Positions 948 through 24,933 of a stretch of 29,950 nucleotides of DNA are shown here, piece after piece (within the stretch, counting starts at the first letter, position 1; the number at the start of each line of letters is the position of its first letter). The stretch comes from a virus. A model generated the notes under the pieces. That model was not told where the DNA came from, searched no databases, and saw only the letters and a program-made list of their open reading frames with translations. The DNA lies in the IMG/VR virus record IMGVR_UViG_3300006793_000163, positions 1 through 29,950 of that record; one strand, written 5' to 3'. Both the position numbers and the translations under genes were made by a program.

Positions 948-1154
948 TCACCTTCCTTTCTTTGCTTTATTAAATTCTTCTGATTCTATTCTTTTAACTT
1001 CACCATGTATCTCTAACATCTGCGATACTAAAGTTGCGGGAGTATGATAAGCCTCTAAAGGACTAACACTAAAAGTTGTTGAATAAGTATATATCATTAT
1101 TCGTGATGCAATATATGGTGGAACACTACCACCCTTTAATGCTTTACGAATCAA
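948..1154 (-). CDS. Tail assembly chaperone, downstream (T-like) frame reached by -1 frameshift
   Basis: This 68-codon frame has no ATG start. Its only apparent start is a TTG overlapping the TGA stop of the upstream ORF. It lies in the -1 frame relative to that ORF and is reached exactly by slippage on G GGA AAC at 1160-1166. It is therefore probably not translated alone but as the C-terminal extension of the 121-aa protein, giving a fusion of 189 aa. This matches the lambda gpG/gpGT arrangement, in which the minor frameshifted product recruits tail tube subunits around the tape measure protein. Its stop TGA is part of the Shine-Dalgarno site of the tape measure gene. Confidence 0.75.
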   Translation of the reverse strand: MIRKALKGGSVPPYIASRIMIYTYSTTFSVSPLEAYHTPATLVSQMLEIHGEVKRIESEEFNKAKKGR

Positions 1155-1516
1155 CTTTCGTTTCCCGTATCATCCCCCATCATATCTGTAAAGGGGTTAG
1201 GTAACACTTCTTTTAATTGTGTACCTACATACGGACTCAAGCGCAATAACTCTAATGCACTTAAACTAGGTTCAGTTTTTTCAACAAAATTTTCAACCAT
1301 AAACCTATACATTTTATTTAAATCTAAACCAAATGAATTGGTTGATGAATCAATATCCATCACGGTTGATAAGGCTTGTTCCACCTGTAACCAAGTTGGT
1401 TCTTTAACCCAAACCATTAGGTATTCATCAGAATCGGGTTCTACCCTCAAATGATGGCATTCAGTATTTACGGCTGCAAACAATTTACTCTTATCACTAA
1501 TTACTTTTTTTTCCAT
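948..1516 (-). CDS. Tail assembly chaperone frameshift fusion (gpGT-like, 189 aa)
   Basis: This is the predicted long product made when ribosomes slip by -1 at 1160-1166. The first 119 residues come from the ORF starting at 1516. After Gly-Asn the next codons in the -1 frame are CGA AAG TTG, and translation continues through the 68-codon downstream frame. The span of 569 nt equals 190 codons minus one base, as a -1 shift requires. In long-tailed viruses the fusion and the short form are both needed for tail assembly but are usually absent from the finished virion. Order tube, chaperone pair, tape measure is the canonical one. The frameshift is inferred from sequence only. Confidence 0.75.
1151..1516 (-). 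CDS. Tail assembly chaperone, short (G-like) form
   Basis: This is a 121-aa acidic, mostly helical protein starting at ATG 1516, with AGGTGG a few bases upstream. It lies between the tail tube gene and the tape measure gene, the usual place of the tail assembly chaperone. It has the usual size and ends in an acidic tail (TDMMGDDTGNES). The slippery heptamer lies three codons before its stop, as in lambda-like G genes. It is preceded by one of the few real intergenic gaps of the window, which carries a terminator-like hairpin and a TATA-like element, so it may begin its own transcript together with the tape measure gene. No sequence-level family match is claimed beyond position, size and frameshift. 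Confidence 0.75.
   Translation of the reverse strand: MEKKVISDKSKLFAAVNTECHHLRVEPDSDEYLMVWVKEPTWLQVEQALSTVMDIDSSTNSFGLDLNKMYRFMVENFVEKTEPSLSALELLRLSPYVGTQLKEVLPNPFTDMMGDDTGNES
1160..1166 (-). promoter_or_regulatory. Programmed -1 frameshift slippery heptamer G GGA AAC
   Basis: On the minus strand the sequence reads ACG GGA AAC GAA AGT TGA in the frame of the 121-aa ORF. G GGA AAC fits the X XXY YYZ rule exactly and in the correct phase. A -1 slip opens the downstream 68-codon frame. A weak 5-bp hairpin (ACGAA/TTCGT) sits directly at the site, and a GGTGG/CCACC stem at 1117-1133 begins 26 nt further on, so any stimulatory structure is weak. Lambda uses the related GGGAAAG. Confidence 0.8.
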
Positions 1517-4918: not shown

Positions 4919-6646
4919 TCAAAACCTATCCACCATCCGTTCTAAACTTCTGTATGTCGCCTTTAGTCTATTAATTGTTCCTACATCTTTCAATTGGTAT
5001 TCCCCCGTTGTACTATTTTCTTCTGATGATATTGTTTTTGACCCACCACGTTCTGTCATTCTTTTACCCCTACGTTCAGGAGATAAAAATGTTTTATTAA
5101 CATTAAAGTTATACTCACTTAAATATTCTTTTACTATTTCATCTATCTTTATTACAGGAAATACATTACTAGTTATTTTTAATCTACCTGCATCTGTAAT
5201 TTCTTTTCTTCCAAGAGCATTTGTACCATCTTCTTTTCTGTCTGATACCATTCTTTTTTGTCTAGGTGATTTATACCATGTTAAAAATTCTTGAGGTTCT
5301 TTATTTATAGCAGCATCAATGAAACTTGCACCATATGTTTGAATAATTTCTTCTAGGATTCCTTTTTCAGAATCTATATCAACAATATCTTCATCCCCTT
5401 CATCAGATTCAATGATTAATTTATTTTGCTCATCAATTGATACAGAAGCATTTGCCTTATCTCTAATTGATTTTTCTGCTTCTAACACCTTTGTTCTATC
5501 TCTAGCCGCTTCTAAAATTTCTTTCTGTTTGTCTTTTTCTTCGCCACTATAATCACCCGTTATTGCTGCTATATCAGATTTATTTAATTTCATCTTTTTA
5601 TATGTAATATCTAAACTACCTGTTTTTAATTTACCATTTTCAGGCCGAACAAAACTCATAATTGCATCCTTTATAGGATTGGTTATAGGTCTATTTAAAT
5701 CCAAAGATATATTTTCCATAGTAAAAGATTCAAAATATGACTTTGCTTCTGCAAAATTTGTAAAACTTTTATCTTCTCCTAAACCGTAAAAAATATATTC
5801 GTCATCACCATCCTCATTAACTTCTACACGCATTGCGTAAATAATACCTGATTTTCCTGTGACTTTTTTAGAATCCCTAATCCCTCTTTCTTGTATATCC
5901 TTAGCATCAAATATAGTCCCTACTTTTACCTTTACTGTTTTCTTGAATGATTTTCTTTTACCTGATTTTAATTTACCTTTTCTATCCATTATCTTTGCAT
6001 CTTTCAGCATTTTTTCTATGTATTTTTCAGAGTCAAATATAATTCCACTATTACTACTATTAACATAGTTACTTAGATTAGAACTTAACATAGGTTTTCC
6101 TGAAAGAAATGCATCTAATGTGCTATTATCACTACCCTCTACTTCTAAAGTATAATTGATAACTCTATCTACTTTGGCTTTATTCTCTAAATCTTTTACT
6201 TTAAACTTAATATCATCCATTCTTTTTTTAGTAATTTCACTAAACAAGGGCGAATCATTTAAAAGATTTCTATTCTTCAAATCTTTAATTAAAGATAGTA
6301 GATTTTGTTTTTGAATTACTTCTAAAAATCTATTCATATACATTCCATATGATTCGTGAGAATAATATGGTCTATTTGCATTACTTAAATCAATTTCTGA
6401 ACTATTAATATCTAAGTTTTCAAACTTCCTTTTGTCTAAGGTATCATACACAAGGTCATCTAAATTATTCATTTTAGGATTATTATATTGTACCTCATGA
6501 AAAATATAAGTGACGAGGTGTTCATATAACTTTACATTCTCCATAAGTCTAATATGACTATAAGTTAAATATTTAGGTTCTAATATAATGTCTGACTGCG
6601 TTGGACTATTATCATCTTCAACAAATATTCGTTCTGCTTCTGCCAT
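4919..6646 (-). CDS. Unrecognised 575-aa virion-module protein
   Basis: The start is ATG 6646 with GGTGA 5 nt upstream. I do not recognise the family. The protein is highly charged. The N-terminal third (about 25-180) is helical and rich in Asn, Leu and Lys. A middle stretch (about 230-300) has a beta-rich look (KVKVGTIFDAKD, SGIIYAMRVEVNEDGDDEY). An acidic segment (ESDEGDEDIVDIDSEKG) lies near 415-430, and the basic C-terminus ends SLERMVDRF. It sits between the MQGN-rich 232-aa gene and the neck adaptor. A minor head, connector-associated or internal protein is possible from position only. No enzymatic motif is visible. Confidence 0.55.
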   Translation of the reverse strand: MAEAERIFVEDDNSPTQSDIILEPKYLTYSHIRLMENVKLYEHLVTYIFHEVQYNNPKMNNLDDLVYDTLDKRKFENLDINSSEIDLSNANRPYYSHESYGMYMNRFLEVIQKQNLLSLIKDLKNRNLLNDSPLFSEITKKRMDDIKFKVKDLENKAKVDRVINYTLEVEGSDNSTLDAFLSGKPMLSSNLSNYVNSSNSGIIFDSEKYIEKMLKDAKIMDRKGKLKSGKRKSFKKTVKVKVGTIFDAKDIQERGIRDSKKVTGKSGIIYAMRVEVNEDGDDEYIFYGLGEDKSFTNFAEAKSYFESFTMENISLDLNRPITNPIKDAIMSFVRPENGKLKTGSLDITYKKMKLNKSDIAAITGDYSGEEKDKQKEILEAARDRTKVLEAEKSIRDKANASVSIDEQNKLIIESDEGDEDIVDIDSEKGILEEIIQTYGASFIDAAINKEPQEFLTWYKSPRQKRMVSDRKEDGTNALGRKEITDAGRLKITSNVFPVIKIDEIVKEYLSEYNFNVNKTFLSPERRGKRMTERGGSKTISSEENSTTGEYQLKDVGTINRLKATYRSLERMVDRF

Positions 6647-6659
6647 TTACTCACCATAT

Positions 6660-7358
6660 TTACGCCAACCATTTAGCCCAAGCAACTGCTTTACCAATTC
6701 CCTGTGCTATCCCCAATCCACTTTGAGGTGGTGTATATGTTGGTTGACCTGTTTGTGGGTCAATCCAATATGGATTGTTAAATTGGTCATAACCTGATGG
6801 TGGTATAGGATAACCACTACCATTATTCATAGCCATTTGTTGTTGCATCATCTGTTGATTCATTCCGCCCATTGCAGGAGCGCCCTGTATATTTGCAGGA
6901 TTCATACCTTGAGGATTACCCATTGTAGGATTACCTTGAGACATTGAACCTGAACTAGATGCAAACCCTTGAGATTCTAAATACTGTTCTTTAGCCATCT
7001 TTCTTTGCATAATAACTTCCGTATTAAGTGCAGCCCCTAGAATATTCTGCAAATCTAATGTAATATTTTCAGCAGTAATACTTTCATATTCTCTCAATGA
7101 ATCAGGATGTACTTCTAAATCTCCACCTGCACCTTGAATAAATTTTAACTGTGGTAGCATTTGTCCCAATACTCTTTGTGTAACATCTTCTAATAATTTT
7201 TCAAATGCTGTTAAAAACGCTTCACCATGATAATAGAAGAACTCTTCTACATGATTTTCTTGTAGCGTCAATAAATTATTCATTGACTTAAATTGCGTTT
7301 GTTGATTTTGTGTTATCTGATTCGATAACGCCCCATTACTTGTACCTAGCCACCCCAT
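6660..7358 (-). CDS. Unrecognised 232-aa protein with Met/Gln/Gly/Asn-rich linker
   Basis: ATG 7358 overlaps the end of the upstream gene by 13 nt and has GGAGGA 6 nt upstream. Residues 1-135 are helical (FEKLLEDVTQRVLGQMLPQL). Residues 136-195 are a low-complexity linker rich in Met, Gln, Gly, Asn and Pro. The tail is Pro/Tyr-rich (YPIPPSGYDQFNNPYWIDP) and closes with a small hydrophobic helix (GIAQGIGKAVAWAKWLA) that could touch a membrane. Low-complexity linkers of this kind occur in virion and scaffold-like proteins. It lies just downstream of the GTPase and membrane-protein cassette, so a link to that cassette cannot be excluded. No family is assigned. Confidence 0.6.
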   Translation of the reverse strand: MGWLGTSNGALSNQITQNQQTQFKSMNNLLTLQENHVEEFFYYHGEAFLTAFEKLLEDVTQRVLGQMLPQLKFIQGAGGDLEVHPDSLREYESITAENITLDLQNILGAALNTEVIMQRKMAKEQYLESQGFASSSGSMSQGNPTMGNPQGMNPANIQGAPAMGGMNQQMMQQQMAMNNGSGYPIPPSGYDQFNNPYWIDPQTGQPTYTPPQSGLGIAQGIGKAVAWAKWLA

Positions 7359-8023
7359 TCGTCTTCCTCCTTATTTTCTTGTATTTGTGTTCCTTCTATT
7401 AATAATTTTTTAACTCTTTCATTATGTGCATTATTTTCTATAATTAATCTAAACAATTCTTCTTCTCTTGTTTCTGTATTCATTTGTGGGGGTTTTATAG
7501 TCCATCCTAATGCTGATAAGTTTTGTATATCCTGTTGTTTCAAAGTAGTTAATGGTCCACTTGCAATTGGATTTAGTGATTTCATACTAGGTACATAAGC
7601 ACTAAATGACAATCCATGTTCCTCCGCAAGCATCTGTTGTTCTAGCATTTCATATTGTCTATGCATATGGGAATGCTTATCACAATAAGTACCTCTCATT
7701 GGGTAGCCCTTCCTAACTTTATGTAAAGGTATCGGTGGTCTAGTTGCATCACTAGCGTTCCAACGCTTTTGTGTACCACATACTACACACCTATCTTTTA
7801 CATTAAATGCAAACTTATATGGGATTTTTAAAATTGTTTTTTTCTCAGGTTTAAGAATAGCAACAATTTCCTTTAATTGTTTTTTTGGTTTATTGCTTTT
7901 AAATTCATATGTCATTATAGAACCGGGCGCTCTAGCCATTTGTTTAGGAGGCAGAAATGGGTTTGCCTCTACATATGCATTGGTAGAACCAATCAAACTA
8001 GGAGGTTGGTAATTCATACTCAT
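7346..8023 (-). CDS. Unrecognised 225-aa protein with a zinc-binding motif
   Basis: ATG 8023 overlaps the stop of the 33-aa gene by 4 nt (ATGA). A possible zinc site is made by C79-x2-C82 (RCVVCGTQ) and C114-x2-H117 with more His at 119 and 121 (YCDKHSHMH). Around it the protein has a Pro-rich N-terminus, a basic strand region (50-75) and a helical, acidic C-terminal third ending in QENKEEDEWGG. The spacing of about 30 residues between the two half-sites is compatible with a structural zinc ribbon. I do not know the family. It follows the GTPase and the Cys-rich microprotein and may belong with them. Confidence 0.55.
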   Translation of the reverse strand: MSMNYQPPSLIGSTNAYVEANPFLPPKQMARAPGSIMTYEFKSNKPKKQLKEIVAILKPEKKTILKIPYKFAFNVKDRCVVCGTQKRWNASDATRPPIPLHKVRKGYPMRGTYCDKHSHMHRQYEMLEQQMLAEEHGLSFSAYVPSMKSLNPIASGPLTTLKQQDIQNLSALGWTIKPPQMNTETREEELFRLIIENNAHNERVKKLLIEGTQIQENKEEDEWGG

Positions 8024-8121
8024 AATCTAACCCCATCCATTTCTCTACATTCAATACACTTACAAAACTCACTCATAGAACAATTTAATGTTGTATAATA
8101 TCTCTTTTCTTTTCTTTCCAT
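8020..8121 (-). CDS. 33-aa cysteine-rich microprotein
   Basis: This very short gene starts at ATG 8121, preceded by a perfect GGTGATTAA ribosome site that begins right after the GTPase stop codon. It ends in a TGA that overlaps the next ATG by 4 nt. The product, 33 residues, has a basic start (MERKEKRYYTT) followed by NCSMSEFCKCIECREMDG, which places four Cys as C-x5-C-x-C-x2-C and could hold one zinc ion. Strong ribosome site plus stop/start coupling argue that it is real. Without it there would be a gap of about 105 nt in an operon where gaps are nearly all under 20 nt. Function unknown. Confidence 0.6.
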   Translation of the reverse strand: MERKEKRYYTTLNCSMSEFCKCIECREMDGVRL

Positions 8122-8129
8122 TTAATCAC

Positions 8130-8801
8130 CTAATAATCTTTAATCATTGTTAATACGCCACGATATACCATTTCTGAATCTGATTTTGCACTTACTATAT
8201 ATTTGAAGCATGGTATTCCCTTTTCATTTAATTTTGTCATTCCACTTTTAAAAGTCTCAAATATTGGATGGTCTTTAATTTCTCCTTTATGTGGATATTT
8301 GTCTTTCCATAAATCGTATTTGTTAGCCCATATACCTACTGCTATTGGATAATCATGAGATTTTTTTCTACCCTTTTTATTTATAGCATCCCAATAAGGA
8401 GAACATATTGTATCAACTAAAAAAGTCCAACACAATTGTTGCTCAATATCATAATGTTTATCCATGTGCCTGTCATCAATCATGAATATGATATACTTAA
8501 CTTTTCTAGTTTTCATATCTCCAATCCACTCAGACCAAAATACTGTTTCTCCTCCTACATCTGCTGTCTTAACTGTGTGTGCATCACCATCTAATTTAAC
8601 ATATTTTCTACTCGGTTTTTCTCGCCCAACAGTTCTTTTCTTAATTTCAGGTACTTCTCCTCTAGTTCTTAATTGATGATGTAATGTTGTTTTTCCTACC
8701 TTTGTTGCACCATAAACACCAAAAGGAATAGAATGCATTCTGTTCCACATTTTTGCTACACCCTCTGCTACTAATATAACAAAGCCCGCCATTACTGACA
8801 T
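8130..8801 (-). CDS. Small Ras/Arf-like GTPase with hydrophobic N-terminus
   Basis: All five G motifs are present and well spaced in 223 aa. G1 is GATKVGKT at 31-38. A candidate G2 Thr is T57 (KRTVGRE). G3 is DVGGE at 81-85. G4 is NKYD at 160-163. G5 is SAK at 204-206. Gly-Gly in G3 is Arf/Gtr-like. The residue at the Ras Gln61 position is Glu85, which may change hydrolysis. Residues 4-19 (MAGFVILVAEGVAKMW) could anchor the protein in a membrane. The start ATG 8801 follows GGTGAT. Two genes directly upstream encode small membrane proteins, suggesting a membrane-associated switch. Fold and nucleotide binding are well supported. The role, for example in entry, egress or membrane remodelling, is unknown. 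Confidence 0.85.
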   Translation of the reverse strand: MSVMAGFVILVAEGVAKMWNRMHSIPFGVYGATKVGKTTLHHQLRTRGEVPEIKKRTVGREKPSRKYVKLDGDAHTVKTADVGGETVFWSEWIGDMKTRKVKYIIFMIDDRHMDKHYDIEQQLCWTFLVDTICSPYWDAINKKGRKKSHDYPIAVGIWANKYDLWKDKYPHKGEIKDHPIFETFKSGMTKLNEKGIPCFKYIVSAKSDSEMVYRGVLTMIKDY

Positions 8802-8807
8802 AATTAA

Positions 8808-9032
8808 TCACCACAAATGATGCCACCAATTAATGAATGCGTTCCAAGTAGAATTATAAAGATTTATTCCCCAAAAAGGAAGTGCATGTCCGACAAAAAA
8901 ACTAGTAATACAAGCAGCAGATGACCAAAGAAAGAATCTAGTTCTTAAGAACCATATATCAGCAGAATGCGCTCTCTGTAAATCATATGCTAATGTGGAT
9001 TCATCAAATCCCATTAATAATTCAGAAACCAT
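8808..9032 (-). CDS. Small membrane protein, one transmembrane segment
   Basis: A 74-aa product from ATG 9032, with GTGAGGT just before it. A GTG nine bases upstream (9041) is the alternative, but it is part of that ribosome site and overlaps the previous stop. Residues 1-31 are polar and helical. Residues 32-54 (RFFLWSSAACITSFFVGHALPFW) form one likely membrane span. The C-terminal 20 residues are very rich in aromatic residues (NAFINWWHHLW), as is common for a segment lying at a membrane interface. No family recognised. It lies between another membrane protein and the GTPase, with gaps of 5 and 6 nt. Confidence 0.68.
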   Translation of the reverse strand: MVSELLMGFDESTLAYDLQRAHSADIWFLRTRFFLWSSAACITSFFVGHALPFWGINLYNSTWNAFINWWHHLW

Positions 9033-9037
9033 ATACC

Positions 9038-9457
9038 TCACTCATTCATAGTTAAGAATGTAGGGCTTATAGTATTGTCAACGGGTTGTTGATATGTCTG
9101 ACCAAATGCAGGTACGGGATTTTGTATGAAGTTATTCCCATATGTTTGGTCATACTGTCGCATAGTATCCCTAACTCTTTTACGATTTTCTTCTTCTTTT
9201 TGTTTTCTAGCCCAATATGCATCTATCTTTCTTTGTAATAACACATCTTCTATTCTATCAAATAAAGTTAAATCGAATATTGCCTTTAGTATCATTATAC
9301 CTCCTATGGTTAATATCCCAAACAATAATGCATGGGTATAACCTGCATATGGAAACATAAACCCATATTGGGTATAAAAATAAATATTAACGCCACTTAC
9401 TGCGCCAACAAATAAAATCGTCATTACTAATCTTGTATCATCTTCTAAACTTGGCAT
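9038..9457 (-). CDS. Small membrane protein, two transmembrane segments
   Basis: A 139-aa product from ATG 9457; GGTGG lies about 7 nt upstream. Two hydrophobic spans are visible, near 10-29 (LVMTILFVGAVSGVNIYFYT) and 40-62 (YTHALLFGILTIGGIMILKA). They are followed by a long charged helix (about 68-100, RKIDAYWARKQKEEENRKRV) and a disordered Gln/Asn/Pro-rich tail. The positive charge after the second span suggests that the C-terminal domain is cytoplasmic. Holins also have two spans and a charged tail, so a lysis role is an alternative. However, no lysis enzyme lies nearby, and the partners here are a GTPase and another membrane protein. No family recognised. Confidence 0.68.
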   Translation of the reverse strand: MPSLEDDTRLVMTILFVGAVSGVNIYFYTQYGFMFPYAGYTHALLFGILTIGGIMILKAIFDLTLFDRIEDVLLQRKIDAYWARKQKEEENRKRVRDTMRQYDQTYGNNFIQNPVPAFGQTYQQPVDNTISPTFLTMNE

Positions 9458-9474: not shown

Positions 9475-9774
9475 CTATGCGAAATTAACCGTGCAATTAC
9501 CTGCCCCTGCATCAAATTCAACATAGCATCCTTGTGCTAATATTGCCCCATGTAAATCTTGTTCTAATGCTTGGGCTGTTCCACCTGCATGCATATGAAG
9601 TCGCAATACTTCTTTTTTACCTGAAATTGTACTATTAGCACTATCCCAAATTTTAATTGTGAATAAAGCATTAGTGGTAGAAGTCATATGAACACTAACT
9701 AATCTACATCTATCACTTGATACTAATGTTGATGAGGACAATACCCCACTAGTGTTACAACCTGAACCACTCAT
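9475..9774 (-). CDS. Small beta-rich protein, probable virion surface component
   Basis: A 99-aa product from ATG 9774, starting MSGSGCNTSGV. A TTG at 9798 would add eight residues but has no better ribosome site. Both sites are weak (GGGA 8 nt before the ATG). The composition is Ser/Thr/Gly/Ala-rich with short alternating strands (RLVSVHMTST, ALFTIKIWDS, KEVLRLHMHAGG, CYVEFDAGAGNCTVNF), a jelly-roll-like pattern typical of small decoration, fibre or spike domains. It has no charged low-complexity region and three Cys. It lies two genes downstream of the decoration-like protein after the capsid gene. Function is inferred only from composition and place. Confidence 0.55.
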   Translation of the reverse strand: MSGSGCNTSGVLSSSTLVSSDRCRLVSVHMTSTTNALFTIKIWDSANSTISGKKEVLRLHMHAGGTAQALEQDLHGAILAQGCYVEFDAGAGNCTVNFA

Positions 9775-9822
9775 ACTTATTCCCAACCATTGAAACAAGG
9801 GGTTGCCTTATCAATCTTCGGT

Positions 9823-13310: not shown

Positions 13311-15863
13311 CTAAGCGGTTTCAGATTCAGGTAAGTCTAATTTTTTATACCTGTCAAGGGTAATATCCCATACTCCTTCATCTTCTTTAGTATCTAACAT
13401 AGTTTGTTTTTTACCAGTCCATGTAATCCAAGTATCTTTACCATCTAAAGGTACAACTCTAACGTGTAATCTAGTATCAAACTTATCACCTTCTAATTTA
13501 TACTCATGATAACCGTCTTTCTGTACTCCTAATATTACCTTACCACTATCAATTACTTTACCCTGTTTAATACCTGATAAACTTATTTTAGCAGGAAACT
13601 TACCTGATTTACCAAATAAGTTATAAACATCGGAAGTTGTTTCTATATCAAACAACCAAGCCATCTTTTTTTCTGCTGTCTCAATAATAAAATCTAAATT
13701 TTTGTCATCTCTTCTTTGAATTAAAAAATTTGCTTGCTTAGGATTAGTTTTTGGTTGCTTTTCAATTGTATCATTATTAGCAACAAAATTATCTTCTGTT
13801 TTATTATAAACAATATCTTCTTGTCTAATTAACCATTTCTTTAATCTTTTTAAGTCTGAATCAAAAGCAGTACTTTCAAACTTATCCATATGATGTTCTT
13901 TAACAAACTCTACTATTTGTTCAAAACTAACAGGTTCATCCATATCTAATAGTTTATTCTTTATTGATAATCTTAATTCAGAACGCATACTTTTTATTGC
14001 TTGTTTTAAATCTTCTTTCCAAACATCAATATCATATAATGCTTTTTTCTCCATTAAATTGTCACCACTGAAACCCATAATAGTAAATCCATCTAAATCA
14101 GATTTCAATAGTATTTCCGCTTCACCATGTATATCATCAGTAATATACATCTTTTTGACACCTTTCAATCTATACTTAAATGGCTTATCTAAATCTTCCC
14201 AAATAGATTTTTTAGTTTTATCAGATAATAATTCTAAAGTTGCTAATTTATCAGATTCAGTAACTTCAGGTATTTCAATTACTTTAGCAGAATACAAACT
14301 AAATCCTTCTTTAGTTTTCTTTACTTCATCAACCTTTACCCTAACTATTTCACCAACCTCAACAGATTCTTTGGTATTCAACGCCTTCCCAACAGGAATA
14401 TATGCTTTATCTTTTAATTCCGTAGTTTTGTATTTTCTTGATTGCTCTGCACTCACAGGTCCAATACCAATAGTATAAGAATATAAATTACTCTTAGTTT
14501 TCTTAGAATCTAATACTACAACATCTAAATCAACAAACTTTTTCCACTTAACCCATTTAGGATTTTTTCTACTACCTATCTGATAAGTAGATTCTATATC
14601 TTTAATTACTACACCTTCTGATGCAGGTAATTGCATTATAGTTTCAGAATAAGTACCTACCTCTTTAATAGAATCTGCTATTCTAGTATCTTTTTTAGAT
14701 GGGAATGCTAAATCTTCGGAAGAATGTTGTGAATATTGATACATTAAAATATTGATTCTCTCTCTTAGTGGTTCATCCATTAAATCTCTTTCCTCATGTC
14801 TCATGATATCAAATACATGAAGTCTAAGTTTCAATCCATCTACGGGTTTCTTGAACATATAATTAATTACAGATGCTCGGTGTAAAGGTTCTTCACCTCT
14901 AAATAACATTAATTCCCCATCTAATATACAATCTCCAAAATGTTTTTTATTTAATTGTTCTACTTGTTCAGAACATTTATCAGTAATATCTTTTTGGTTA
15001 TAAGAATATATTTTTACCTTACCATCTATCTTATGTAATTGAACTCTCATCCCATCATATTTTTCTTGAACAACATATTCACCACTAAAACCTTTTAATT
15101 GTTCCATATCATTTAATTCAAATATTCTGTACATAGGTTTATTTGGAATTACAAAATTAATATCTGCCTTTTCTTCTTCTGATTTAGTATCGTCAGATTT
15201 TTTAATATTAATATCAACTAACTTATTCCATTGTACATTGGTATATTCTTCTAAAAATACTTTTTTTAGTAGGGACAAGATACTATTAAACTTAGATTTA
15301 ATTCTTTTAGTGTCTTTATTCTCACCATAATGTTCAGAAATATATAATGGAATATCCTTAGATTCTAAATCTAATCCCATAGCACCTTGAGTAATTTCAT
15401 CAGGGCGAAGATTATGCTTTTCCCACGCTGCTGAAGGTAAAGGAATATTATGCGCTCTTAAGGCATAATGTACAAATGCAGCATATACACTATCATTAGA
15501 TAATAATGTATCTACTACATTATCACCTAACTGTTCTGCAAACGGGTCACTTATTTCTTTAGACTCAAATCTCAATGATTTGACAGCCTCATATAATTTT
15601 CTTGCTTGCATGGAAGATGCATCTTCTGCCTTCTCATCGAATAAAATATCCTCATCTAAGTGTTTCTTTAGTAGTCCTGTAAAAGCATCTAAAGAATCAA
15701 ATTGTGTTCGTATAGACTTTACAGTATTTTTCCATTTTTTATTGTATTCTTTCGGGTCTTCTAGTGCTGACAAATACGAAAATCGTGTTCGTTCAAAAAA
15801 GTCTAACACTCTTTTTGTTAGAAGGTCTTTCTTCTTTTCAAATACTACGCCTGAAATTGACAT
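13311..15863 (-). CDS. ATP-dependent DNA ligase with long N- and C-terminal extensions
   Basis: Seals nicks in DNA using ATP. The nucleotidyltransferase motifs are clear. Motif I is EKYDGMR with Lys268 as the adenylated residue, motif III is LDGELMLF (314-321), motif IIIa is HVFDIMR (349-355), motif IV is EGVVIKD (416-422) and motif V is WVKWKKF (437-443). An OB-fold region follows (about 445-535). At 850 aa it is much longer than typical archaeal or viral ligases (about 300-600). Residues 1-235 are helical and unassigned. Residues 540-700 are unassigned. Residues 710-820 look like a degenerate LigD-type 3'-phosphoesterase domain. The start ATG 15863 follows GTGGT. It sits among structural genes rather than replication genes, so it may act on packaged or injected DNA. 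Confidence 0.9.
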   Translation of the reverse strand: MSISGVVFEKKKDLLTKRVLDFFERTRFSYLSALEDPKEYNKKWKNTVKSIRTQFDSLDAFTGLLKKHLDEDILFDEKAEDASSMQARKLYEAVKSLRFESKEISDPFAEQLGDNVVDTLLSNDSVYAAFVHYALRAHNIPLPSAAWEKHNLRPDEITQGAMGLDLESKDIPLYISEHYGENKDTKRIKSKFNSILSLLKKVFLEEYTNVQWNKLVDINIKKSDDTKSEEEKADINFVIPNKPMYRIFELNDMEQLKGFSGEYVVQEKYDGMRVQLHKIDGKVKIYSYNQKDITDKCSEQVEQLNKKHFGDCILDGELMLFRGEEPLHRASVINYMFKKPVDGLKLRLHVFDIMRHEERDLMDEPLRERINILMYQYSQHSSEDLAFPSKKDTRIADSIKEVGTYSETIMQLPASEGVVIKDIESTYQIGSRKNPKWVKWKKFVDLDVVVLDSKKTKSNLYSYTIGIGPVSAEQSRKYKTTELKDKAYIPVGKALNTKESVEVGEIVRVKVDEVKKTKEGFSLYSAKVIEIPEVTESDKLATLELLSDKTKKSIWEDLDKPFKYRLKGVKKMYITDDIHGEAEILLKSDLDGFTIMGFSGDNLMEKKALYDIDVWKEDLKQAIKSMRSELRLSIKNKLLDMDEPVSFEQIVEFVKEHHMDKFESTAFDSDLKRLKKWLIRQEDIVYNKTEDNFVANNDTIEKQPKTNPKQANFLIQRRDDKNLDFIIETAEKKMAWLFDIETTSDVYNLFGKSGKFPAKISLSGIKQGKVIDSGKVILGVQKDGYHEYKLEGDKFDTRLHVRVVPLDGKDTWITWTGKKQTMLDTKEDEGVWDITLDRYKKLDLPESETA

Positions 15864-17193: not shown

Positions 17194-17199
17194 TCTAAA

Positions 17200-17586
17200 T
17201 CACTCTTCCATCCAATCATCATTCAGAGGTGTCAAAAAATCTTTAGCATCTTCTAACTTATCATTAAAAGATAATTCCATTACTCTTCTCAAAAACTTGT
17301 CAATTTCTTCATTGTCATTGTCATCTAAATAAGTAGCAAATAATATTCCTGTATAATTTCCTACATTACATTGAATATAATATGTATTAGTATTTGGTTT
17401 AGGTGCTTCGTCATCGTCATAGAAAAAATTATCATAAATATTTTTTATTTCTTGGTTACGGTAGCCATCAATTAATTGTCGAGTAGATTCTATTTCTACA
17501 TTTTTATATCCTGATAAAACGTCATTTATTTCTTCAACTGCCTCCATAACAGTTAGTTTTCTTTTTAATATATCTTCCCAACTCAT
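17200..17586 (-). CDS. 128-aa acidic protein with N-terminal Trp tag
   Basis: ATG 17586 overlaps the preceding stop by 4 nt (ATGA), with GGGTGAT upstream. The N-terminus MSWEDILKRKL is the clearest form of the shared tag. The rest is strongly acidic, with two helices (about 12-27 and 37-55), an Asp-rich turn, a beta hairpin (TYYIQCNVGNYTGILFATYL, about 68-87) and a last helix pair (EEIDKFLRRVMELSF). The family is not recognised. If the tag targets proteins to the prohead, this is a candidate cargo or assembly factor. Confidence 0.63.
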   Translation of the reverse strand: MSWEDILKRKLTVMEAVEEINDVLSGYKNVEIESTRQLIDGYRNQEIKNIYDNFFYDDDEAPKPNTNTYYIQCNVGNYTGILFATYLDDNDNEEIDKFLRRVMELSFNDKLEDAKDFLTPLNDDWMEE

Positions 17587-20873: not shown

Positions 20874-20901
20874 AACACATATTAAAGTTCCTTTATGTGT
20901 T
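20874..20901 (-). repeat. Inverted repeat over the stop codon of the LAGLIDADG-type gene
   Basis: The minus strand reads AACACAT, then 14 nt, then ATGTGTT, a perfect 7-bp stem. The AAAG/CTTT inside can add 4 more pairs. It spans the TAA stop at 20893-20895 and ends before the portal ribosome site. It may be a weak terminator or an mRNA-end structure. Confidence 0.35.
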
Positions 20902-22260
20902 ATTTACTCCTATCAGATTTAAAGCATCATCTCTCTCTAACTTATCCATCCAACTCATTTTAGAATTTTCCTCTAGTTTACTTATAGAATCTAAATCAAT
21001 ATCAAAGGCAGAAAAGTCAAAGTTTACATTATCCCTATGATTATGGTATTTCATTAATTTAAATAATTCACCCATTCTACCTTTAGCCCAAGGCTGTTTT
21101 TTAAATCCTTTTTTAATTCTAACTAACTCTAATAATATATCTGCATTTGGACCTTTCATTCTAAAATGTGGCCTACATTTAGTCAATAAATCATGCACAT
21201 CTTTTTGAGAGTAAAAATTTAATCTATTCACTGGCCTAGTATCTTGAGGGGATTTTTGGTCTAAATGTAATCTTCCCATACCTAAACATTTATGCAACTC
21301 TAACATGAAAGCCTTACCTCTTTCCCCTGTGGCAACTAAACCAACTCTAGGATTATTATTTCTATCCATAGTAATATACCCATCAGAGTCTATAAACGCA
21401 GCAGTATAAGCCCAAACATTTTTCTTAATATCATCATTTATCTTATAATAAGCACCATTTACATTAGTAATATTTTGACTAATTGCTAATTTAGAAATTA
21501 TTTGAGGAGAAGACATTTTCTTAAGATTATCAGGTAATGCCTCATGTATCTCTCTAGAAGATATTCCCGGTGATTCACAAACAGATTTCAAAATATTTTC
21601 TTTAATTCTTTTCTTAATGCCCTTTGTAGAACTTTGAGATTTTATAATTCTCTTAAAATCTTTTTTCGCTGCTGTCATTTCCTTACTAATAGAAATATAT
21701 TGTTTATTTAAAGGCATATCTTTTATTTCTAACTTATTTTCCCAATACTTACAAAGAGAGTCTATAACCTGTCTTTTAGTATCTATATCTTGAATTTTAC
21801 TAAGTTTAATTATCTGAGATTCTGAACAAGTCATATCTTTAATTACAGATTTATACGGACTAGCCCAATAAATTTTATCAATGCTCTTATCTAAGTGGTC
21901 AGCATAAGCATCTATCAAATTATCAATAGATTTACTCATATCTAATCTTTTTTCACCCTTGAGAGTTCTTCTGAACATTCTCATGTCCTTTACTAAATCA
22001 GGAATATTTTTATTCTCTATTGTATATTCTTTCAATGATAAATCTAAAATTCTATCTGCTTTTGTATAAGACATATTGAAATCCTTTGCAAAGTCCTTAA
22101 CTAAATCGTTATGGTTCGATAAAGCCCTTCCATCAAGCCATAACATCTTGGCTTCTAATTCCATATCTTGTTCTAGTTGGCGTTGTTCAGCAGTGAGTTC
22201 TTCTACCTCTTTTACTTTGTTAGTTAGTGCTTGTAATTGTTCAGAACTAGGAGTCGCCAT
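20893..22260 (-). CDS. Winged-helix / LAGLIDADG-type endonuclease-like protein with C-terminal Trp tag
   Basis: A 455-aa protein from ATG 22260 with GAGAGGT upstream. It lies between terminase and portal. Residues 1-215 are helical, including a likely DNA-binding helix pair near 45-80. Residues 218-275 resemble a winged helix (NILKSVCESPGISSREIHEA, then a strand pair). Residues 283-385 look like one LAGLIDADG unit. The motif is TAAFIDSDGYI (286-296) with Asp at the catalytic place, then a beta segment (PRVGLVATG), a helix and a second beta segment (VNRLNFYS). The end holds the tag (SKMSWMDKLERDDALNLI). One LAGLIDADG motif implies a dimer. It may be a domesticated or mobile homing endonuclease, or a DNA-site recogniser for packaging (small terminase role). 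Function is not proven. Confidence 0.7.
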   Translation of the reverse strand: MATPSSEQLQALTNKVKEVEELTAEQRQLEQDMELEAKMLWLDGRALSNHNDLVKDFAKDFNMSYTKADRILDLSLKEYTIENKNIPDLVKDMRMFRRTLKGEKRLDMSKSIDNLIDAYADHLDKSIDKIYWASPYKSVIKDMTCSESQIIKLSKIQDIDTKRQVIDSLCKYWENKLEIKDMPLNKQYISISKEMTAAKKDFKRIIKSQSSTKGIKKRIKENILKSVCESPGISSREIHEALPDNLKKMSSPQIISKLAISQNITNVNGAYYKINDDIKKNVWAYTAAFIDSDGYITMDRNNNPRVGLVATGERGKAFMLELHKCLGMGRLHLDQKSPQDTRPVNRLNFYSQKDVHDLLTKCRPHFRMKGPNADILLELVRIKKGFKKQPWAKGRMGELFKLMKYHNHRDNVNFDFSAFDIDLDSISKLEENSKMSWMDKLERDDALNLIGVNNT

Positions 22261-23981: not shown

Positions 23982-24373
23982 GCTGTTCCCTTCCTTCGTT
24001 TATATGTTTTACATGCTGCACATGTTGGCCTACATCTTCTTTTAGTTCCTTTAGAAGCATCTTTTCTACCACAAGGTTTTGGCCCACCTTTACTACCACA
24101 ACTAGAACAATCTATCCAACCTCTTTGAGTTTTACCACCTTTTTCTTTTCCACCTCTTCTAGAAAACCAACCGTGTAATCCCTCATCTTTTTCTCTTTTG
24201 AAATTGTCTCCACCTTTCTTTACAGAATTACCCCAATTCTTTGCGCCAACTTTTCTACACTGAACTAAAGCACCACTTGCATAGGCAGAAGGCCATTTCT
24301 TGTAACGCCTTCTTACTTTATGATAACAAGCATCTTTTTTTCCTTTTTGTACTTGTTCAAACCATACATCCAT
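23978..24373 (-). CDS. Small basic Cys-rich protein with HGWFSR region (DUF5872-like)
   Basis: The start is ATG 24373. It shares one base with the previous stop (TAATG) and has GAGGTGAT before it. An ATG-less extension to 24406 would overlap the GNAT gene. The 131-aa product starts MDVWFEQVQKGKKDAC, a variant of the shared Trp tag. Residues 16-50 hold a block that I recognise from many marine phage proteins (KWPSAYASGALVQCRKVGAKNW). Residues 66-121 (GLHGWFSRRGGK, WIDCSSCGSKGG, CGRK, CRPTCAAC) resemble DUF5872 and have six Cys able to bind zinc. Function is unknown. Charge and tag suggest a virion DNA-binding or condensing protein, next to a second such protein. Confidence 0.72.
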   Translation of the reverse strand: MDVWFEQVQKGKKDACYHKVRRRYKKWPSAYASGALVQCRKVGAKNWGNSVKKGGDNFKREKDEGLHGWFSRRGGKEKGGKTQRGWIDCSSCGSKGGPKPCGRKDASKGTKRRCRPTCAACKTYKRRKGTA

Positions 24374-24933
24374 TATATCACCTCGGTTTTTATTGCAGCC
24401 CACCAACTAGAATTATGAATGTAATATTTTTCTAGAGTTCCGATAATTTTCTTAGCATTACCAATAGAAATCTCTTCTATTAATTCATCAGGTAATTCTG
24501 ATTCCTCTAATTGCCTAAACCCTTCACTAAGATAGTAGTTCATAGCATTTCTATCAGAAAAATTAACTATCAGTTTTTTATTTCCTTTATTTCTAATCAT
24601 TTCACGAAATAATAATCCCATTAACCCTCTACGTCTAAAGGTGTCTCTAACGTGTATTCCTGAACCTAATAAAAAATCTTTGTATGGTGCATAACCGATT
24701 ACTCCAATAGGTTTGTCTGTATCTTTTTCAAATGCAACATGGTGTACGGATGGGGCAGTAGCAAACTTACCATCTTTAGGGATACTCCTAAATCTTTGTA
24801 CTCTAGATTTGAACCCATCATACCCATCTTTTCTAAATATTTGAATGGCATCATCCTCTGACATTGTTTTGAAATATATTTCATCAGCAGCATACTTAGT
24901 GGCGGGTAATTGAGGATAATCTTCATCCGACAT
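24373..24933 (-). CDS. GNAT-family N-acetyltransferase
   Basis: A 186-aa enzyme predicted to transfer an acetyl group from acetyl-CoA to an amine. ATG 24933 has a perfect GGTGATTAA site. Motif A is visible (GIHVRDTFRRRGLMGLLFREM, about 92-112), with the Arg-Arg-Gly loop that binds the pyrophosphate of CoA. Motif B follows as NAMNYYLSEGF (129-139). The N-terminal strand region contains HVAFEKDTDKPIGVIGYAPY. A C-terminal helix and strand extend beyond the core. Single acetyltransferases are common in tailed viruses, where they may modify host or virion proteins. Substrate unknown. It lies between a 917-aa protein and the basic proteins; Lys-rich neighbours are possible targets, but that is speculation. 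Confidence 0.82.
   Translation of the reverse strand: MSDEDYPQLPATKYAADEIYFKTMSEDDAIQIFRKDGYDGFKSRVQRFRSIPKDGKFATAPSVHHVAFEKDTDKPIGVIGYAPYKDFLLGSGIHVRDTFRRRGLMGLLFREMIRNKGNKKLIVNFSDRNAMNYYLSEGFRQLEESELPDELIEEISIGNAKKIIGTLEKYYIHNSSWWAAIKTEVI

Follow-up and report, generated by a model that had tools for sequence, protein, structure and literature searches.

Eukaryotes provide the best-known small GTPases that act on membranes, and only recently have such proteins been tied to vesicle release in archaea. In Haloferax volcanii, vesicle budding is driven by the small GTPase ArvA, which bears an N-terminal helix: deletion of ArvA lowers vesicle release and its overexpression raises it, and a Zn-ribbon neighbour, ArvC, has been suggested to act as its GAP (PMC10927574). 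Among viruses, small GTPases of the Rab, Ras and Ran kinds are found in giant viruses (Nucleocytoviricota), and a role in virion membrane biogenesis has been suggested for the mimivirus Rab (PMC11915834). No mechanism was established in a 2015 review for the exit of tailed viruses from archaea that lack a rigid wall, and no holin was known from isolated archaeal viruses (PMC4456609), which leaves egress as an open niche.

The stretch of DNA analyzed here (the window) is a virus record of 29,950 bases, in which an earlier note made from the letters alone had picked out a small GTPase gene. We found that this gene lies at the core of an obligate cassette of five genes, a feature beyond the view of that note. 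The cassette reads TM139-TM77-GTPase-Zn225-Q232 and occupies positions 6660-9457 on the minus strand (Table 1).

Table 1. Positions in the window of the cassette genes, the two boundary genes and the GTPase motifs, with the basis for each.
Feature	Positions	Strand	Basis
S107, small protein; upstream cassette boundary, not a member	9475-9798	-	Protein of similar size and start at this place in cassette-less viruses
TM139, two predicted TM helices, basic tail, conserved C-terminal peptide (SPTFLT type)	9038-9457	-	Alignment; hydropathy in homologue L194
TM77, single predicted TM helix, preceded by a conserved YDLQRAHSADIWFLRxRF-type motif	8808-9041	-	Alignment and position
Small Ras-like GTPase, 223 aa	8130-8801	-	ORF with ATG start; G motifs invariant in homologues; Ras/Rab/Arf fold
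GTPase N-terminal hydrophobic helix, aa 2-22, nearly invariant Glu13; likely membrane anchor	8736-8798	-	AF2 helix and hydropathy
G1 P-loop GATKVGKT, aa 31-38	8688-8711	-	GxxxxGK[ST] in 153/153 homologues
G2 Thr57 in RTxG	8631-8633	-	Invariant in alignments of 28 and 24 homologues
G3 DVGGE, aa 81-85, Glu at the Ras Gln61 place	8547-8561	-	DxGG[EQ] in 153/153
G4 NKYD, aa 160-163	8313-8324	-	WANKxD in 153/153
G5 SAK, aa 204-206	8184-8192	-	153/153
Zn225, invariant CxxC...CxxH (C79, C82, C114, H117)	7346-8023	-	22-sequence alignment
Q232, conserved N-terminal half (NNLLTLQENHVEEFFxYHGE), Gln/Gly/Met-rich linker, conserved C-terminal WAKWL	6660-7358	-	11-sequence alignment
p575, variable protein; downstream boundary, not a cassette member	4919-6646	-	Large proteins at this place with or without the cassette

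A sibling contig of 95.6 kb (G002) carries a GTPase 99% identical to that of the window and also encodes a two-piece PolB, an ATP-dependent ligase, an ERCC4 nuclease, a pyrimidine dimer glycosylase, an RFC-like AAA ATPase, a TFB-like zinc ribbon and a class II ribonucleotide reductase. This gene set is close to the one described for magroviruses (order Magrovirales), which are associated with Poseidoniales archaea (PMC10160649, PMC10768690, PMC12999244), and the Magrovirales gene-set criterion (PolB, ATP ligase, ERCC4 nuclease and DNA glycosylase together with HK97-type head genes) was met in the sibling contig and in screens of related records. Among phage records, the capsid protein (MCP) was nearest to Druskaviridae, as has been published for the magrovirus capsid protein (PMC8651126). 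Judged by gene content, the cassette viruses are tailed and magrovirus-like, and their host is probably Poseidoniales. Because reference magrovirus genomes were absent from the collections searched, both the membership in Magrovirales and the host rest on gene content and the literature, without host data.

The genome collection contained only two matches to the GTPase (L077 and L078), both from one Maricaulis MAG. We rejected these copies as host genes, as they lie on two different magrovirus-like contigs with viral synteny that were most likely mis-binned. A sister marine lineage (L153-L178, L198 and similar records) has the same ligase-protease-MCP block without the GTPase cassette, and unsplit PolB frames (821-886 aa) occur in three of its long records. 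A link between the cassette and the split PolB was considered and dropped because of the long PolB frames present in some cassette viruses.

Elsewhere in the window, an 850-aa ATP-dependent DNA ligase is encoded within the late structural operon (13311-15863, minus strand), flanked by the prohead protease and p255; a second ligase (L116) is found in the replication module of the sibling contig. Two short overlapping ORFs of 121 and 68 aa (948-1516, minus strand) look like a frameshift-made tail assembly chaperone pair. Between portal and terminase, a 455-aa protein (20893-22260, minus strand) contains a LAGLIDADG-like stretch (AAFIDSDGYITMDRN) and had no Pfam match, and just upstream of the terminase gene a GNAT-type acetyltransferase (24373-24933, minus strand) adjoins two Cys-rich basic small proteins.

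The earlier note had described the GTPase as complete, with all five G motifs, and this description held across its homologues. In a census of 153 distinct full-length homologues on viral contigs, GxxxxGK[ST], DxGG[EQ], WANKxD and SAK were each kept in every protein, so that homologues lacking G4 or G5, which would have refuted the claim, were not encountered (NKxD and SAK in 153/153). The G1 glycines and GKT, T57, DxGG, NKxD and SAK were likewise invariant in two alignments of 28 and 24 diverse homologues. The Glu that had been remarked upon at the place of Ras Gln61, within DVGGE, is present but is a variable feature: this place holds Glu in 99 homologues, Gln in 54 and nothing else, so Glu there is not diagnostic. 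With that site masked during tree building, a FastTree tree showed at least six switches between the two residues. Changing Gln61 to Glu in Ras is not known to abolish hydrolysis. The alternation would be in keeping with an active enzyme, hydrolysis itself being inferred, and since the place is always Glu or Gln through at least six changes, selection for hydrolysis is likely. The GTPase had a median dN/dS of 0.044, compared with 0.080 in the capsid protein and 0.064-0.101 in the remaining genes of the cassette; it is under purifying selection no weaker than that acting on the capsid protein.

We next compared the predicted fold and the sequence with known families. The AlphaFold (AF2) model of the GTPase, made from 28 sequences, had a mean pLDDT of 73.5 and a pTM of 0.73, with low confidence at the P-loop end and in part of switch I. 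A Foldseek search of this model against the PDB gave 1,399 matches at E<=1e-3, and the best 50 were nearly all Ras, Rab and Arf/Arl proteins, with E-values for the Ras/Rab/Arf fold down to 4e-8. The structure search that had been proposed as a check thus placed the protein with Ras/Rab/Arf and not with another P-loop class. The proposed profile search also led to Ras-like families, all of them below cut-offs: the top Pfam match was SRPRB (PF09439; E 5.6e-4, 19.8 bits against a cut-off of 25), Ras (PF00071) scored 13.4 bits and did not reach its cut-off of 21.6, Roc and MMR_HSR1 matched under their curated cut-offs, and the Arf profile (PF00025) gave no match to the window GTPase. Across 28 homologues, weak matches were obtained to SRPRB (26/28), Arf (14/28), MMR_HSR1, Roc and Ras. 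The only NCBIfam match was to the generic small_GTP domain, under its cut-off, and PHROGs contained no family for the protein. Sequence matches in the PDB, Arl structures among them, covered chiefly residues 26-112, and similarity to cellular small GTPases extended over only ~85 residues with weak E-values.

Relatives were not found in the phage collection or among plasmids, and searches that did not specifically cover Poseidoniales genomes gave no close relative from cells, plasmids or isolated phages. The label "Ras/Arf-like" is therefore right as to kind, the protein being Ras-like by sequence and fold, but it is not assignable to the Ras or the Arf family. As far as profile searches can tell, the GTPase fits the Ras-like superfamily yet no named family, all curated cut-offs having been missed; it is a new, divergent branch, virus-only so far, that it adds to this known superfamily. 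Those missed cut-offs, together with the low model confidence in the P-loop and switch I, could suggest a protein of another P-loop class or a degenerate remnant that does not work as a GTPase. We give this suggestion hardly any credence in the face of motifs intact in 153/153 homologues, a fold match as strong as 4e-8 and strong purifying selection. Taken together, motifs, fold and conservation show that the protein is truly a small GTPase and belongs to the Ras-like superfamily, an observation far beyond chance. Since the motifs are intact and the fold is that of Ras/Rab/Arf, nucleotide binding is likely conserved, while GTP binding and hydrolysis are inferred.

The hydrophobic N-terminus that had been noticed in the sequence corresponds to a predicted helix (mean Eisenberg hydrophobicity 0.58; Kyte-Doolittle maximum 1.53 over 19 aa). 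The helix is hydrophobic and not strongly amphipathic, anchoring in a membrane is inferred, and, of SRP receptor beta and Arf, its arrangement is closer to SRP receptor beta. The GTPase could accordingly resemble SRP receptor beta in function as well, being membrane-anchored and bringing viral proteins or proheads to a site on the membrane while leaving membrane shape unchanged. The two share a domain order, with a hydrophobic N-terminal helix ahead of the GTPase domain, and SRPRB is both the top Pfam match and weakly matched by nearly all homologues examined. However, the SRPRB score lies under its cut-off, Roc, MMR_HSR1, Ras and Arf match weakly too, and no SRP receptor alpha partner was seen, and we regard this function as unlikely.

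On one side of the cassette lie the capsid genes and on the other the head-tail connector, all on one strand within the late structural operon, and the cassette genes are spaced by short gaps or overlaps. The earlier wording of a "virion operon" can be upheld for this position among late structural genes, but only as a position. Related contigs showed the same order (MCP, small head genes, TM139, TM77, GTPase, Zn225, Q232, head-tail connector and tail genes), the exceptions being contig ends. At one locus (L310), the GTPase was split over two frames. In the gap between GTPase and Zn225 of the window, there is a 33-codon Cys-rich open frame (8020-8121, minus strand) whose stop overlaps the Zn225 start codon.

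For a census of the cassette, the capsid protein served as the only means of recovering contigs, the first row being HVTV-2, a haloarchaeal virus, and the 55 loci with both the capsid gene and the connector gene present were counted. The cassette was all-or-none, being complete in 10 of these loci, absent from 45 and partial in none. Loci recovered via Q232 alone carried the full cassette, and the shorter ones started inside it near a contig end. In cassette-less viruses, an S107-like protein is followed directly by a large p575-like protein, the flanks adjoining, such that the cassette is inserted at one exact site. A record-wide search of 11 cassette-less viral records, several of which are fragments, revealed no relocated GTPase and recovered both positive controls. 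Our strongest result is thus that the five cassette genes are gained or lost together at a single site, and this all-or-none behavior at one exact site implies that the five genes probably work together. PADLOC defence models gave no match to the cassette. In a Druskaviridae record (L079), a small single-TM protein (17199-17528) lies right before the head-tail connector, near the place of the magrovirus-like cassette.

The place between head proteins and connector is a common one for neck and ejection proteins of tailed viruses, so the cassette products might be minor parts of the virion close to its neck that are taken in, or delivered, together with the DNA; in that case, TM139 and TM77 would insert in the host membrane, and the GTPase would gate or orient DNA entry. 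The conserved ends and flexible Gln-rich middle of Q232 would suit such a role. On the other hand, cassette-less viruses have the same head and connector genes, a GTP switch in a virion would be without nucleotide exchange until after entry, and no virion proteomics exists. We consider a role in the virion or in entry unlikely.

Homologues suggest that the true start of TM77 is the ATG at 9032. Based on their sequences, three consecutive gene products in the middle of the late operon, TM139, TM77 and the GTPase, are probably membrane-associated. The CxxC...CxxH of Zn225 is likely a zinc site; the 22 Zn225 proteins matched no Pfam family and no known zinc family, and a fold search with a predicted model of low confidence matched nothing. 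Q232 matched no Pfam family either. No known counterpart of the five-gene cassette was found; its existence is demonstrated, whereas its mechanism is inferred.

Since vesicle release in some euryarchaea is driven by small GTPases (PMC10927574), the viral GTPase might instead mimic or titrate a host small-GTPase pathway, such as vesicle release or signalling, and play no part in the morphogenesis of the virus itself. However, four linked, virus-specific partners and the late structural placement indicate a machine intrinsic to the virus, and a similar host protein was not found, Poseidoniales genomes not having been specifically searched. Manipulation of the host in this way appears improbable.

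The reading we tentatively favor, while holding it to be somewhat short of an even chance, is that, at a late stage of infection, a membrane-anchored GTP switch reshapes the host membrane or opens it, a mechanism that is inferred. The GTPase would sit on the host cytoplasmic membrane, held by its hydrophobic N-terminal helix, and would act on TM139 and TM77, both small membrane proteins, in the manner of a GTP switch. Zn225 might regulate the switch in a GAP- or GEF-like role, and Q232 might tie the complex to the capsid or the membrane. In its GTP state, the complex would remodel or open the membrane late in infection, and virions would be assembled at the membrane or released through it; the logic would be like that of membrane deformation by ArvA, Arf and Sar1, with other partner proteins. 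In support of this membrane switch, two small TM proteins are among the four partners, and the GTPase has a hydrophobic helix at its N-terminus. Against it, there is no experiment, the helix is more hydrophobic than amphipathic, and the Zn225 model, as predicted, is of low confidence and matches nothing. Because sister viruses manage without the cassette, a role in egress would not be universal to the group. It is possible, if doubtful, that the cassette represents an undescribed kind of virus membrane machine, in which a tailed archaeal virus would deploy a Ras-like GTP switch and dedicated small membrane proteins of its own so as to deform the host membrane or open it, whether for an egress timed by the GTPase or to acquire a membrane. 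The two membrane-protein neighbours point to a virus-encoded machine on the host cell membrane, and a GTPase cassette conserved so strictly in marine archaeal viruses that are widespread is a concrete, testable candidate for exit.

The earlier note had known of no established role for a small GTPase among tailed-virus structural genes; we likewise found none in the literature searched, nor any report of a Ras-like GTPase among such genes, and the best 50 matches to the GTPase model in a viral structure library were all giant-virus proteins. No mention of a GTPase was found in the magrovirus literature (PMC10160649, PMC10768690, PMC12999244), although a prior mention in Philosof 2017, Zhou 2023 or Prabhu 2025 is not excluded.

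The nearest functional analogue of the cassette is ArvABC (H. volcanii OapA/B/C; PMC10927574). In both, the small GTPase has a single domain and an N-terminal helix presumed to contact the membrane, the operon includes a Zn-binding neighbour, the setting is euryarchaeal and several GTPase families are weakly matched. They differ in that the two viral TM proteins and Q232 have no Arv counterpart and in that the viral genes lie in a late operon. ArvB (OapB, PF09846) was detected in 0/11 viral records, with a positive H. volcanii control, and none of the 22 Zn225 proteins matched the ArvC family (DUF2072 Zn ribbon) at E<=1. With ArvB absent and Zn225 outside the ArvC family, the Arv likeness is therefore one of analogy and not homology, the orthology of the GTPase and ArvA remaining open. 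The viral GTPase shares with Arf/Arl/Sar1 proteins (PF00025) a DxGG[Q/E] switch II and a TxG near switch I, but it lacks the Arf-type Gly2, has a long basic insertion before strand 5 and often carries Glu at the catalytic place. The giant-virus GTPases (PMC11915834) are viral small GTPases too. They resemble eukaryotic host families, whereas no close cellular relative was found for the cassette GTPase, which comes from a different virus realm and is encoded in an obligate cassette.
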